From Asticcacaulis taihuensis (GTDB taxonomy: Bacteria > Pseudomonadota > Alphaproteobacteria > Caulobacterales > Caulobacteraceae), in contig NZ_FMTS01000001.1 in assembly GCF_900100255.1 (NCBI RefSeq), positions 62,001-126,000 of the forward strand: a DNA stretch of 64,000 bases, in the 5' to 3' direction. The notes under the pieces were generated by a model. It saw nothing but the letters and a program-made list of their open reading frames with translations. It had not been told where the DNA came from and did not search any database. Positions 57,335-63,254 of the stretch are shown here, piece after piece (within the stretch, counting starts at the first letter, position 1; each line of letters begins with the position of its first letter). The translations under genes and the position numbers were made by a program.

Positions 57335-59116
57335 ATGCATATCTATCGCTCCCATACCTGTGGCGCCCTGCGCGCTTCCGACGCCGGCACCCAGACCCGT
57401 CTGTCGGGCTGGATTCACCGCAAGCGCGACCACGGCGGCCTGTTGTTCATCGACCTGCGCGACCATTATGGCCTGACTCAGCTTGTTTTCGATCCGTCTT
57501 CGCCAGGCTTTGCCAAGGTGGAGCGTCTGCGCGCCGAGAGCGTGATCCGCATCGACGGCAAGGTGGTGGCGCGTGACGCCGCGACGATCAATCCGAACCT
57601 GCCGACGGGCGAGGTTGAGGTCTATGTCGGTGAGGTAGAAGTCCTGTCCGAAGCCGCCGAACTGCCGCTGCCGGTCTTTGGCGAACCGGAATACCCGGAA
57701 GAAATCCGCCTGAAGAACCGTTTCCTCGACCTGCGCCGCGAAACCCTGCACAGGAACATCGTCCTGCGCTCGAAGGTGATCCATTCCATCCGTCAGCGCA
57801 TGGTCGACCAAGGCTTCCTTGAATACCAGACCCCGATCCTGACGGCCTCTTCGCCGGAAGGCGCGCGCGACTTCCTGGTGCCGTCGCGCCTTCATGCCGG
57901 CAAGTTCTACGCCCTGCCGCAGGCGCCGCAGCAATTCAAGCAACTGTTGATGGTTTCGGGTTTCGACCGTTATTTCCAGATCGCGCCGTGCTTTCGTGAT
58001 GAAGACCTGCGCGCCGACCGTTCGCTGGAGTTCTACCAACTCGACGTTGAGATGAGCTTTGTCACGCAAGAGGATGTTTTTGCTGCGATTGAGCCGTTGA
58101 TGCACGGGCTTTTCACCGAATTTGGTGAGGGCAAGCGCGTCTCGGCTTATCCGTTTGTGCGCATCCCTTACCGGGAATCTATTGCCAAGTACGGCTCGGA
58201 CAAGCCTGACCTGCGCAACCCGATTGAGATGCAGGACGTTTCCGAACAGTTCCGCGGTGGCGGCTTCGGCCTGTTTGCCCGTATTCTGGAAAACCCGGCC
58301 AATGCCGTCTGGGGCATCCCGGCGCCGAAGGGCGGCAGCAGAGCCTTCTGTGACCGCATGAATTCGTGGGCGCAAGGCGAAGGGCAGCCTGGCCTTGGCT
58401 ATATCTTCTGGTCGGAAGACCAGGGTGGCTGGGGTGGCCCGATTGCCAAGAATCTCGGCCAGGAAGGCACCAATGCCGTCATGGGGCAGCTTGGTCTCGG
58501 CCAGGGCGATGCCGCTTTCTTTGTGGCCGGTGATCCGAAGGTTTTCTATAAGTTTGCCGGTTCGGCGCGCACCAAGGTCGGCACCGATCTTAACCTGGTG
58601 GACGAAGACCAGTTCAAGTTCTGCTGGATCGTCGATTTCCCGATGTTTGAATATAACGAGGATGAAAAGAAGGTCGATTTCTCGCACAATCCGTTTTCGA
58701 TGCCGCAGGGCGAGATGGAGGCGCTACTCAGCAAGGACCCGCTCGATATCCTGGCCTACCAGTACGATATCGTCTGTAACGGCTATGAGTTGTGCTCCGG
58801 CGCGATCCGGAATCACAAACAGGACATCATGCTGAAGGCATTCGAGATTGCCGGCTATGACGAAGCCTTCGTAGAAAGCCAGTTCGGCGGCATGTTGAAC
58901 GCCTTCAAGTACGGCGCCCCGCCGCACGGTGGCCTGGCGCCGGGCATCGATCGCATCGTCATGCTGCTGGCCGGCCAGACGGCTATCCGCGAAGTTATCG
59001 CCTTCCCGCTGAACCAGCAGGGTCAGGACGTGATGATGAGTGCGCCATCCGATGTGCTCGACAAGCAATTGAAGGAACTGCATATCCGCACGCAAATGCC
59101 GATCAAGGTCGGCTAA
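57335..59116 (+). CDS. aspS: aspartyl-tRNA synthetase, probably non-discriminating
   Basis: The 593-residue class II synthetase has an OB-fold anticodon domain (1-110), motif 2 [24 protein letters not shown], a bacterial GAD insertion and motif 3 [18 protein letters not shown]. The N-terminal RKRDHGG has His (His33) where strictly Asp-specific bacterial enzymes have Leu; His there is typical of enzymes that also charge tRNA-Asn, later amidated by GatCAB. That specificity is inferred. The stop codon abuts junction element C. Confidence 0.95.
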
Positions 59117-59248
59117 CTTATGGGGTTTGGGGCCTGTGGCCCCAGGATTTTTCTCTTTCAAAGAAAAAGCCCTGCCAATTTGGCAGGGCTTTTTCTTTGA
59201 ATAAGGTAAAGTTTTGTGGGGTCATAGACCCCAAACCCCATAAGTTTA
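59114..59248. repeat. nested-palindrome junction element, copy C (inverted)
   Basis: A 135-bp relative of copies A and B fills the aspS / pentapeptide-gene junction and includes both stop codons. The left arm (59114-59143) contains TATGGGGTTTGGGGCC and folds as GGGGCC TGT GGCCCC; the right arm (59218-59248), inverted, is nearly the same with a GGGGTC TATGACCCC hairpin. The spacer ATAAGGTAAAGTTTTGT on the right is the inverse of the left spacer of copies A and B, so this copy is flipped. The centre is a perfect 19-bp stem, again of different sequence. Confidence 0.85.
59158..59200. terminator. central bidirectional terminator of junction element C
   Basis: A perfect 19-bp inverted repeat (59158-59176 with 59182-59200), loop AATTT, with GC-rich part GCCCTGCC/GGCAGGGC and the shared TCAAAGAAAA/TTTTCTTTGA base. 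Confidence 0.85.
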
Positions 59249-59740
59249 GTGAACCACGCACACCGGAATACGGAGGCCGCGCGGCAGTTCTGTCGCTTCG
59301 TCGCCGCAGGTTTGATCAAGCTGGCGCTGGGTCAGGCCGATGGCTGACCCCATTTCCGCACCGGAAAAGTTTACGCCACTCAGGATCGCGCCCTTGAAAT
59401 TGGCGTGTTCGAGATAGGCGCCGACAAAATTGGCATTGGTCAGGTTGGCGCCGGCGAAATTGACGCGGCCGAACAGGGCGGCCGAGCCGTTAATGTCGCG
59501 CAGGTCGGCCCCGGCGAAGTTCGTGCCGTTGAAGATGCCAAGCCCCATATCTGACTGACGCAGGCGCGCACCGGCGAAATTCCTGTTCTTCAGGGTACGG
59601 TTATTGAAATCGGCCTGAAAGAGATTGCAGCGCGGACAGTTGGCGCCATTTTGCGCGCTGGAAACCTGGGCGGCATTCTGCGCCATGGCAGGAGCGCTGA
59701 TGAAGCAAGAGGCCAGCAAAGCCAGGACAATACGTTTCAT
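59246..59740 (-). CDS. secreted pentapeptide-repeat protein
   Basis: The 164-residue protein has a signal peptide ending at APAMA-Q. Residues about 45-130 are A(D/N)LXX/FXG pentapeptide repeats (FAGADLRDINGSA, FAGANLTNANFVGA), which form a right-handed beta-helix. A CPRC pair precedes the repeats and a Cys pair lies in the C-terminal part, suggesting oxidised periplasmic caps. No function can be assigned. Confidence 0.85.
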   Translation of the reverse strand: MKRIVLALLASCFISAPAMAQNAAQVSSAQNGANCPRCNLFQADFNNRTLKNRNFAGARLRQSDMGLGIFNGTNFAGADLRDINGSAALFGRVNFAGANLTNANFVGAYLEHANFKGAILSGVNFSGAEMGSAIGLTQRQLDQTCGDEATELPRGLRIPVCVVH

Positions 59741-59824: not shown

Positions 59825-62614
59825 TTACCGTTCCTCTACATCATCCTTTTCAAACGCCGGGTTAACCGCATCCTGCTTTTTGCGATTGCCGAATGGTATG
59901 ACCACCAGATTGTCGGTCGCCGTGCCGCGTGCAAAGCCTTTCGAGATCAGTTGCGAAGCCGGCATGGCATTGCTCGGCACGTCGTCTGTTTCGGGCAGGG
60001 CGTCGCCATGGAAATAGCCCTGGCCCAGACCATCGGCGTTCAGTTCGTCCGGGTCGGCGTTGGAAAGATCATCGCGGTCAAGATAGGAGATCGCCAGTTC
60101 ACGGAAGATATAGTCGAGAATTGAGGTCGCCGACTTCACACGGTCATTGCCGGTGACCGGACCGGCCGGTTCAAAGCGCGTAAAGACATAGGCGTCGACG
60201 AATTCTTCAAGCGGCACGCCATATTGCAGCCCGATCGAGATGGCGATGGCGAAATTGTTCATCAGCGAGCGGAAGGCCGCGCCTTCTTTGTGCATGTCGA
60301 TGAAGATTTCACCGATCGAGCCGTCTTCGTATTCGCCTGTGTGTATATAGACCTTATGGCCGCCGACACCGGCCTTCTGGATATAGCCTTTTCGACGATC
60401 CGGCAGCTTGGTACGGGACCGCTCGCGCTCGACAATTTTTTCAATAACCCGCGGCGCAGCCTTCTCGATTACCGGTTCAGGGATTGGTCGCTTTGGCGCG
60501 TCCTCGATGTCAGGAATATCGAGCTTGAAATCAGGCGGCGGATCAGCCCGATGAACGGAAACGGCGCGCAGGCCGGAACTGGCGGCCAGAGAATAGATTT
60601 TCATGACATCGACCACGCCCTGGTCCCAGGTCAGGCGGAAAGGCGTTGTCACGGGCGCGTCGATCAGGCTTTCAATGGATTGGCGGAGGTGAATTTGCGC
60701 CTTGCGGCCAAGAGGGCTCAGTAACTGGTATACCTGGTCCGATAAGAGTCTGAGTGCTTCCGGATCCTTGTGACCGAAGATATGGATATCCGCTTCCTGA
60801 ATTTCCGGTTTTGAAAAACCCATGACAGCCAGAAGGTTGAAAGCCGGATCTGAGAGATCGCTTTCACTCAGGCCCCAGATGTCCTGGATGAATGCGGCAT
60901 CGATATGACGGACGGAAAAGACCTCGGCCAATGAAGTTGCCGTGAGAAGCGCCGTTTCCAGACGAGTGATCTCAAATTCACTCAGGCCCTTTGATTTCAG
61001 GCTGGCGACATTGATATGCGGCGCGTCGATCAGGCTACGGCTGCCAAGCAGGATCTGGCGAACATCACCCCAGCTATGAGAAATGGTGCTCAACCCCATG
61101 ATAACATAGGGTTTGATTGTTGGCACAAAAACGCCGTCCTCGGTTTCCATGACCGTCAAAAGCGCGCTGACACCCTTGTCGCCCAGCCCGGCGCCCAGGC
61201 GCAGGGCCAGTTCGGCATCATCGAACAGGGCGGTCACCTGCGCATTACGCAGGCCGGTTTTCTTGGTCAATTTGAGCGCGGTTTGAGTGAGGTCCAGCGC
61301 CGCGGACTTCATCTCGGCCTGGCCTTTCAGGGCGGTGATCCGGTAGAGGCGCTGGCTGAGCCGATCGGTCTGCTCCGCCTTGTCGACGGCGAAATTGTCA
61401 TAAGGGGCCAGATGCGCGGCCAGGGAGGCAGATGCATGGACGGCCGCCGCTTCGAACAAAGCAAAGATATGGGTGGCCAGATCGACGCCGGCGGGTTCGC
61501 CAAGGCTGAGCCCGCGGCTCATTATAGCTTCGCCGAGTCCCGCCAGGGTCAGGGCCAGCGGGCGCGTGGCGGCTCGGCGCAGGCTGTCATCAAGCGTTGC
61601 CGAAAAACCGACAGCCGCTTCGATATCCAGCGCCTGTGTCCAAAGGGTGACGGCATCGATAAAGGCGTCTACCGCGAATATGCCGTCATCCGAGATGAAA
61701 CGTTCAACATTGATCGCCGCGCGGGCCGCATAATTTTGGGCTTCAACCGCCTCAGCATCCTGCGGAGCAAAAACAACATGGAGTGCGCCGGTTTCCAGTG
61801 CCGTTTCGGCCGCCAGCACAGCCGAGGGATCACCGGCGGCGAGAAGGTCACGTTCGCCGATCACTGCCCGGAAACGGGAGGATACCTGTGCAGTCGCCGC
61901 CGCGCGTGACCAATCGGCAGGCGCCATGCCCTGGCTGAGTTGAATCTGCCGGGCGATCACGGCATCCGAGGCCCCGAAGCGCCGGGCCCTGGCGGCGGCG
62001 CGGGCAAGCGCCGGATTGTGTTTCAGGCTGGCGCGTTGCTCTCCTTCGGACCGGTCGATAGCACTGGTGATCTCATCGAGTGCCTGGGCCAGCCGGGTCT
62101 GTGTCGCAGCGGCCAGAGCACTGGCGCGGGCTTCGATCAGCAATTGGTTGATGGCGTTGCGGCCGGCATGGTCATCAAGGAAGAGCGGCGCCGTTTCCGC
62201 GGCCGCCGGCAGCCTGTCGCCGGCGGTCGGGTGGACGCGGTGCCCGGACTTAAGTCCGATGGCGGGGGCCGCCAAGCCGGCCACAAGCGTCATTCCCAGC
62301 ATATCGGCGAATTCAGCCGCCGTTTTCGCATCGGGGAAATATCCGAGCCGCAGTCCCCATTGGGAGAGGCGATGGGCATAGCCGACCATGGCGCCATCGA
62401 AAGCGTCATTTTCGGGATTTGCCGACAAGGCGGCTGCGCCGGCCGGCAGGTCTTGCGGCAGCGAATCAGCCCAGTCCATCCAGGCTTCAACCTGGACTGT
62501 GGTCAGATCGCGTGGGCACAAAACCTCCGCGAACCCGTTCACGCGCTCGATCTCACGCAATTCCAGATCGGGCAGGGTGGCGAGTGCGCTCAGGGCAGGA
62601 GACAGATACGACAT
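59825..62614 (-). CDS. class II ribonucleotide-reductase-like pseudoenzyme (NrdJ homologue without catalytic cysteines)
   Basis: The 929-residue protein resembles alphaproteobacterial NrdJ along most of its length. N-terminal [45 protein letters not shown] (about 309-331), [15 protein letters not shown] (351-365), [10 protein letters not shown] (453-462), [14 protein letters not shown] (592-605), then [23 protein letters not shown] and [39 protein letters not shown] (the TSCPD domain, about 740-850) parallel segments of the active enzyme. Only one Cys is present (Cys33), so the radical and redox thiols are gone; the Asn-Pro-Cys and finger-loop segments are replaced near residues 280-300 and 462-490. 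The frame is intact and selection-like conservation is strongest in the C-terminal domain. Role unknown; a regulatory or scaffolding paralogue is inferred. Confidence 0.8.
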
Positions 62615-62708
62615 GCCTTTATCCTTGGTTTATGATGCCTTATCCCCAGATGTAGCGTTAATTTCAACAGGCATCAATAAATCTGGTGGGCTGAAGGCTA
62701 ATCATCCA

Positions 62709-62718
62709 CAATATGTTG
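62709..62718. promoter_or_regulatory. NrdR-box-like sequence
   Basis: CAATATGTTG matches 9 of 10 positions of the NrdR-box core CWATATATWG, 95 bp upstream of the RNR-like gene in the divergent gap with the NDUFA12 gene. A weaker match lies at 62745-62754. NrdR sites usually occur as pairs about three helical turns apart; the 36-bp offset here is not ideal. Confidence 0.3.
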
Positions 62719-62840
62719 ATCTGTGGTCAGGGCGTGACGATGGACAATATTTTCAGTGCCCGCTTTACCTTGGGCGGGCGTCTCACTATAGATATGGGCA
62801 GGTTTCGGGGCCGTGACTGGCTCCACGCAAGGATATCACG

Positions 62841-63254
62841 ATGCAATGGTTGCTTAATCTACTCGCTCCCTCATTCACGTGGTGGAATGGCGCCACGCTT
62901 GGCACCCTGTTCACCATTGGCAAGCGCGGCCGTAAGGTCGGGGAGGACGAATTCGGCAATCGTTACTATGAAGACCGCACGGCCAAGAACACCTATGATG
63001 CTGGCCGCAAGCGCCGCTGGGTGGTCTATAAGGGCTATGCCGACGCCTCCAAGATTCCGCCCGACTGGCATGGCTGGATGCACTACACCTATGACACGCC
63101 GCCGTCTGAGGCGCCGCTTCGCCGCAAGGCCTGGGAAAAGCCGCACCTGCCGAACATGAGCGGAACACCTTACGCGCAGTTTCCGCCGGGCTCAATGAAT
63201 GCCGAAGCCGAGCGCGCGAAGACAACAGGCGATTACGAAGCCTGGAAGCCGTAA
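62841..63254 (+). CDS. NDUFA12-like complex I accessory subunit
   Basis: This 137-residue protein matches the NDUFA12/B17.2 family: TLFTIGKRGRKVGEDEFGNRYYED, RRWVVYKG, SKIPPDWHGWMHYTYD and a C-terminal Pro-rich region. Alphaproteobacteria share this supernumerary NADH:ubiquinone oxidoreductase subunit with mitochondria. AAGGA precedes the ATG. The DUF2155 gene follows after 13 bp, a common pairing in this class. Confidence 0.93.
   Translation: MQWLLNLLAPSFTWWNGATLGTLFTIGKRGRKVGEDEFGNRYYEDRTAKNTYDAGRKRRWVVYKGYADASKIPPDWHGWMHYTYDTPPSEAPLRRKAWEKPHLPNMSGTPYAQFPPGSMNAEAERAKTTGDYEAWKP

Follow-up and report, generated by a model that had tools for sequence, protein, structure and literature searches.

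A catalytically dead orthologue of the class II ribonucleotide reductase NrdJ with a conserved C-terminal domain in Caulobacterales

The window analysed here, a stretch of 64,000 nucleotides from Asticcacaulis taihuensis, holds a long reading frame for a relative of the class II ribonucleotide reductase (RNR) NrdJ. This gene is the ancestral alphaproteobacterial nrdJ, made non-catalytic in place. The best explanation of the data is that selection preserves above all the TSCPD or "IscU-like" domain of the protein, together with a remodelled RNR-like scaffold. The gene is organized as follows (residue numbers refer to the window protein, and model segments to positions of the NrdJ profile described below):

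59825..62614, minus strand: whole gene, a catalytically dead NrdJ orthologue of 929 aa with one cysteine
61721..62614, minus strand: remodelled N-terminal part, residues 1-298, with model segments 170-300 and 376-489 missing
62516..62518, minus strand: codon of Cys33, the sole cysteine
60545..61720, minus strand: second barrel half plus insertions, diverged, residues 299-690
60416..60544, minus strand: linker, residues 691-733, with partly low model confidence (712-732)
60059..60415, minus strand: C-terminal TSCPD or "IscU-like" domain, residues 734-852, model segment 973-1135
59828..60058, minus strand: tail, residues 853-929, with very low model confidence and without a zinc finger

The first-pass annotation had described a NrdJ-like frame of 929 codons with a single cysteine, and this description is confirmed. 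Cys33 stands alone, and structure prediction returns an RNR alpha fold of the class II, NrdJ-like type for the 929-aa Asticcacaulis protein, with the RNR barrel upstream of the TSCPD domain. The TSCPD profile PF12637 matches the window protein with 40.6 bits against a curated cut-off of 22.8. A separate model of the C-terminal domain, made to look for an IscU-like fold (IscU/SufU), was poor, and its structural matches were weak. According to the model, the tail (residues 853-929) is likely disordered.

The loss of the catalytic parts was followed with a profile of length 1219 built from 20 live NrdJ, 14 from the order Caulobacterales and six from outside. The window protein, of 929 residues versus about 1220 in live NrdJ, aligns over positions 301-372 and 490-1144. 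The missing segments, 170-300 and 376-489, are where the HACFIQ cysteine, the GSGTGTNFS effector loop and NPCSE are located. The column of the NPCSE radical cysteine (N-x-C-x-E, in the finger loop) is a gap in the window protein, and so are those of both active-site cysteines, HACFIQ (first) and TACNLAS (second). The annotation was thus right that the catalytic cysteines are gone, but the segments that it called rewritten are, in the profile alignment, deleted instead. The phosphate loop PTGTIG holds D and A at the two columns examined. This change and the missing effector-loop segment make nucleotide binding by the core, which had also been suggested, unlikely.

The same picture extends to 60 dead proteins, in which neither the NPCSE nor the HACFIQ column is ever occupied by a cysteine (mostly gaps, with weak alignment there); the TACN cysteine is retained in three. 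N-x-C-x-E occurs at other positions, not at the catalytic site, in the dead loci L141 and L149; in L141 it lies just ahead of the site, whose own sequence is ARDDQ. The zinc finger follows a different course: at least one CxxCG is found in 42 of the 60 dead loci and pairs are absent in 18, and among the dead loci read in Caulobacteraceae the loss is confined to two of Asticcacaulis. Asticcacaulis has no cysteines left in that region, which rules out cysteine-based electron transfer as the function preserved there. N-x-C-x-E was present in 10 of the 118 homologues found; in the homologue list, P0001-P0065 lack the C..C pair and P0066-P0100 have it, except for the piece P0070. One long NrdJ (P0113, 1551 aa) shows no N-x-C-x-E and holds the extra domains PF14528 and PF14890, which we take to be of intein type.

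Dead nrdJ is the prevailing form in the order. A profile search of 150 Caulobacterales genomes found only a truncated form (194-407 bits) in 106, a full-length NrdJ (over 1600 bits) in 35, and neither, meaning nothing beyond matches of other RNRs, in nine. Sequences were read directly for 42 of the 106 and for G019, a genome of the same genus, and NPCSE was absent in 43/43. The motif was likewise missing from all 25 loci of a genus search (including the window and G019, two of them incomplete at contig ends) and from 25/25 Caulobacterales loci found by name; the nrdJ of Maricaulis salignorans is also dead. Class I NrdA exceeded the cut-off in 149 of the 150 genomes. The remaining one, G175, has a dead NrdJ and was considered as a true lack of NrdA; it is probably an assembly gap, since its NrdB match is truncated as well (a 155-aa frame).

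Several single cases deserve mention. The full-length match of G106 lies in two overlapping pieces, and the truncated match of G126 contains an internal stop. In L195, L196, L198 and L199 the contig starts inside the gene; three of them score like dead genes, while L199, from a Brevundimonas metagenome-assembled genome, is a live-like NrdJ piece of 1150 bits, either contamination or a real exception. Five genomes with a dead nrdJ (G037, G108, G121, G114 and G061) encode a second RNR-like frame of 582-776 aa that aligns with NrdJ from about position 392 to 603 and may represent a further class II subclass.

Live and dead genes occupy one site, which in the majority of the 80 loci mapped reads accB-accC-aat-DUF2155-NDUFA12-[nrdJ]-(pentapeptide gene)-aspS. 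At least two of eight marker genes are nearby in 72 of them, and L142, L151, L154, L158, L159, L170, L171 and L176 fall below two. Its neighbours in the window are:

62841..63254, plus strand: NDUFA12, divergent neighbour and site marker
59246..59740, minus strand: pentapeptide-repeat gene, downstream on the same strand as nrdJ, which it adjoins in most loci of the order
57335..59116, plus strand: aspS, site marker

The pentapeptide-repeat protein has, by eye, a signal-peptide-like start, and its gene, found beside both live and dead nrdJ, is a possible operon partner.

The annotation had treated the protein as a paralogue that might bind the active NrdJ. The genome check that it proposed found class I NrdA and NrdB, the former intact with NLCSE and a C-terminal CLAC, and no catalytic NrdJ. 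A barrel search of the A. taihuensis genome returned nothing besides NrdA and the window gene, neither a second class II RNR nor a separate catalytic NrdJa of the split type. With a single syntenic site common to most live and dead genes and no other NrdJ found in the genome, "paralogue" is the wrong term, and action on an active NrdJ is impossible, since the genome search revealed none.

Two or three losses of catalysis fall within the order, and several more outside it. In a tree of neighbouring proteins (71 of the 80 loci, 1507 columns with gaps, built by a quick method), the live locus L160 stands beside the dead family f2 (100) and the live L161 beside the dead f4 (99); the dead f1 groups with the dead f3 (99), and f5 is live. 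If loss is taken as the likely direction, this arrangement corresponds to three losses. L160 carries the family code f4, at odds with its place in the tree; were the code correct, a single loss might account for f1, f2 and f3, which would leave two in all. Reacquisition of a live nrdJ at this site is equally short on the tree but would need the deleted segments to be replaced. The core segment 713-835 fits independent loss, as the dead families are no more alike there (identity 0.26-0.34) than dead and live proteins are (0.28-0.32).

Outside the order, 28 of 385 alphaproteobacterial genomes were chosen for their intermediate scores and 17 loci were mapped. Families f164 and f154 have a dead gene that retains the C-terminal domain, and f31 and f104 have about 105 residues of it left. 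In f13 and f102 the domain stands alone, as a protein of 272-278 aa at the same syntenic site; a NrdJ-profile search of these genomes found, besides it, nothing but matches in a single further frame, NrdA-sized at 620-651 aa. Family f102 is SAR11: its L145 protein is 98% identical to one from "Candidatus Pelagibacter sp.", and the best 120 of 8000 matches are 273-292 aa long with 86-99% identity (all 8000 candidates scored matched, and those beyond the best 120 may include fragments of other NrdJ). P0119 is a SAR11 domain protein of 274 aa, one record of which is titled "ribonucleotide reductase [Candidatus Pelagibacter sp.]". The domain is retained in small genomes of 1.2-1.4 Mb. Conversely, f125 (L149, L150), f119 (L146, L147) and f108 (L139-L141) are dead nrdJ without the domain; in G479, an f108 genome, the nrdJ pieces lie about 2.1 Mb apart. 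Two near-complete NrdJ with the domain but without N-x-C-x-E, L070 (G222, 1190 aa) and L071 (G562, 1085 aa), may be early steps towards a dead nrdJ.

The C-terminal domain is the part that has changed least. Over segment 973-1135, identity to live NrdJ from outside the order is 0.64 for 43 dead proteins (f1-f4) versus 0.66 for the 14 live ones of the order, while over segment 836-943 the same comparison gives 0.21 versus 0.62 and over segment 601-712 it gives 0.21 (the 16 dead proteins with enough columns) versus 0.63; pairs with fewer than 40% of columns filled were left out. The annotation's statement that this domain is nearly unchanged holds well: of 71 domain columns invariant in the 20 live NrdJ, the window protein keeps 68, and the 43 dead proteins keep a mean of 97%. 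In segment 601-712 the window protein keeps 9 of 40 invariant columns and the dead proteins 11%, gaps being counted as losses. Mean column identity of the domain is 79% over 51 sequences, with many invariant polar residues. To judge from these sequence comparisons, the domain must have a role independent of catalysis.

Substitution rates (w, dN/dS by Nei-Gojobori, with many pairs saturated) agree with the earlier view that this is no decaying pseudogene and show no relaxed selection. The closest pair, L004 and L005, has a dN/dS of 0.11 over the whole gene (dS 0.43), 0.22 over residues 1-160 and 0.00 over the domain. Across 125 domain codons, three unsaturated close dead pairs show no nonsynonymous differences versus 35, 36 and 27 synonymous ones. 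For the rest of the gene, w is 0.10-0.14 in the three pairs and 0.06-0.26 over twelve dead pairs of the order, versus 0.10-0.22 in three live pairs, so that the remodelled core is also constrained. Nor is the domain the sole selected part, since the f125 remnant, which lacks it, is still constrained (w 0.16). Together with the motif loss and the predicted fold, these values support the proposal of an RNR-derived, non-catalytic and selectively maintained protein. A constraint at the nucleotide level (an RNA element) was considered for the 77% DNA match of the domain region to Sinorhizobium but is not supported: in most pairs, the domain has synonymous differences as often as the other parts of the gene do.

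A link to dNTP supply comes from the promoter, where three elements were located:

62706..62721, minus strand: NrdR-box-like 16-mer 1 (GATCAACATATTGTGG)
62674..62689, minus strand: NrdR-box-like 16-mer 2 (CCACCAGATTTATTGA), 32 bases on from box 1
62643..62658, minus strand: possible third NrdR-box-like 16-mer (ACGCTACATCTGGGGA), 31 bases on from box 2

A passage of PMC4409342 describes paired NrdR boxes for RNR promoters of P. aeruginosa. Sites chosen with a presumed NrdR consensus form tandem pairs at a distance of 31 or 32 bases in 20/20 Caulobacteraceae nrdA promoters, each beating 100 shuffles. The 40 sites, GC-rich and free of any nrdJ sequence, made up a matrix that was run at spacings of 31 and 32 only, the threshold being the highest score among 162 control regions (aat, accC, aspS and pentapeptide). 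Tandem sites were predicted at 15/15 dead nrdJ of Caulobacteraceae versus 0/162 controls, the pair in the window promoter scoring 18.7 bits. A first, narrower scan with the matrix had placed 13 of the 15 above 166 controls, and missed two because the pair lies inside an over-long start call; 18 of the 22 named loci with upstream sequence exceeded that first control maximum, the misses being L190, L197, L203 and L207. The initial scan, which allowed spacings of 20-22 and 30-33, also gave a spacing of 32 in 13/15. In Caulobacteraceae the window gene is apparently under NrdR together with nrdA, as the predicted sites suggest, and it is this part of the suggested regulator of dNTP supply that stands, without the action on an active NrdJ. 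In principle, the divergently oriented NDUFA12 might be the gene that the predicted boxes serve. Replacement of an ATP-cone was considered and rejected: its single match in 41/41 genomes lies in an NrdR-sized frame (152-193 aa) and showed no correlation with nrdJ being full-length, dead or absent.

Beyond Caulobacteraceae the pairs are scattered. Dead nrdJ show them in 0/6 cases in f2, 0/10 in f4 and only 4/12 in f3, live nrdJ in 1/4 in f4 and 5/10 in f5, and the other families in 8/17 dead and 5/6 live genes. None was detected at the stand-alone f13 and f102 genes with this GC-rich matrix, and all seven dead loci without the domain have one. The matrix, trained on GC-rich Caulobacteraceae promoters, may miss sites elsewhere.

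The reading that we favour, at somewhat short of even confidence, is a protein without catalysis that acts in dNTP supply as a regulator or assembly factor, its C-terminal domain binding NrdA, NrdB or NrdR. A class I RNR in the same genomes renders class II catalysis dispensable; NrdAB would make the dNTPs and nrdJ could become a pseudoenzyme in place, which NrdR would co-express with nrdA in Caulobacteraceae and whose domain would bind a component of the RNR system, with NrdA, NrdB and NrdR as candidate partners. The promoters of f2, f3, f4, f13 and f102, the boxes at the domain-less loci and the constraint on the domain-less f125 form, the lack of correlation with the ATP-cone, and the nine of 150 genomes of the order without a NrdJ match count against it. 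A broader version is more doubtful: the domain would be an independent regulatory module for dNTPs, kept in one lineage after another that gave up class II catalysis, in Caulobacteraceae within a pseudoenzyme under NrdR control and in SAR11 as a small protein of its own, and would regulate or assemble class I RNR and so couple dNTPs to the cell cycle. There is an appreciable chance, although well below even, that the domain works outside dNTP metabolism, in a moonlighting role already present in live NrdJ, with the NrdR boxes as a relic. In its favour, the domain of f2 and f4, where no NrdR pair was detected, is about as conserved as that of f1 (0.68 and 0.70 versus 0.68 to live NrdJ), the equally pairless stand-alone proteins still reach 0.56-0.59, and its column identity seems beyond the needs of oligomerisation alone. 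However, a pair found in 15/15 Caulobacteraceae would be hard to keep as a relic, and those missing elsewhere may be sites overlooked by the matrix.

A dNTP sensor, which would bind nucleotides or cobalamin and signal dNTP or B12 status, is unlikely. The RNR-like predicted fold and the NrdR-type promoter are in line with it, as are the oligomers dependent on the C-terminal CRD that a live class II RNR forms with dATP/dGTP, according to a passage of PMC5704485; yet the GSGTGTNFS loop, the HACFIQ cysteine and NPCSE are missing, the two PTGTIG columns examined are D and A, and the stand-alone forms are entirely devoid of an RNR core. An enzyme with a different active site, to which the invariant polar residues of the domain might point, is very improbable given the lone C33, the absence of a finger-loop motif and the changed phosphate loop. 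Least probable is a slowly decaying, functionless relic. The strongly diverged core, the nine genomes without a match and the distant gene pieces of G479 would suit it, but the 60 dead loci read have long open frames (G126, with its stop, came from the profile search), the closest pair shows whole-gene constraint, the domain stays unchanged while synonymous sites change, and it persists in small genomes.

These genes offer a natural experiment, in which an RNR domain of unreported role, the best-kept part in most dead lineages, has been separated from catalysis. Its role is testable in Caulobacter, where, according to part of PMC12186491, dNTP level and NrdR influence the swarmer-to-stalked transition. 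The Caulobacter homologue CCNA_01966 (the sequences read here are of related Caulobacter proteins) appears as a B12-dependent RNR in a list of PMC5869019 and as NrdJ in a B12 pathway figure of PMC6538847, and some database names call dead NrdJ proteins RNR alpha chains. The class I alpha subunit of Caulobacter, CCNA_03607, goes by the name NrdE in PMC6538847, and its NrdB is CCNA_00261. Where Alphaproteobacteria are counted by name as B12-dependent or as carrying a class II RNR, the totals are likely too high. Searches of open-licence papers yielded no account of a catalytically inactive alphaproteobacterial NrdJ and no experiment on a dead NrdJ protein.

The closest known system is the alphaproteobacterial NrdJ itself (NF005736/PRK07562; R. 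sphaeroides 7b9p/7b9q), with which the window protein shares the site, the predicted fold, the domain order, the C-terminal domain and, in Caulobacteraceae, the predicted NrdR-type promoter. Unlike it, the window protein lacks the radical and reducing cysteines, the effector-loop segment and the zinc finger, and has a changed phosphate loop. For the live enzyme, a passage of Loderer 2017 (PMC5704485) assigns dATP/dGTP-induced oligomers and electron transfer to the C-terminal region including the zinc finger, and section 2.4 of Burnim 2022 (PMC9669993) states that no role had been reported for the IscU-like part. Loderer also mentions a few Alphaproteobacteria with two NrdJd enzymes, only one of which has the CRD, a case different from dead NrdJ. 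Like f13 and f102, NrdJb of the split class II RNR (PMC9669993, section 2.4) is a separate C-terminal-domain protein; unlike them, it has a catalytic NrdJa partner, whereas their genomes show only the NrdA-sized other frame. The kept PF12637 domain takes the place that the CRD, or "IscU-like" part with zinc finger, has at the C-terminus of class II RNRs, but the dead form lacks the catalytic core and that of Asticcacaulis also the electron-transfer zinc finger. Herpesvirus RNR homologues and yeast Rnr4 have likewise lost catalysis and gained other roles. Those cases belong to class I and are viral or eukaryotic, whereas dead NrdJ is a class II, bacterial case that arose repeatedly and in place.
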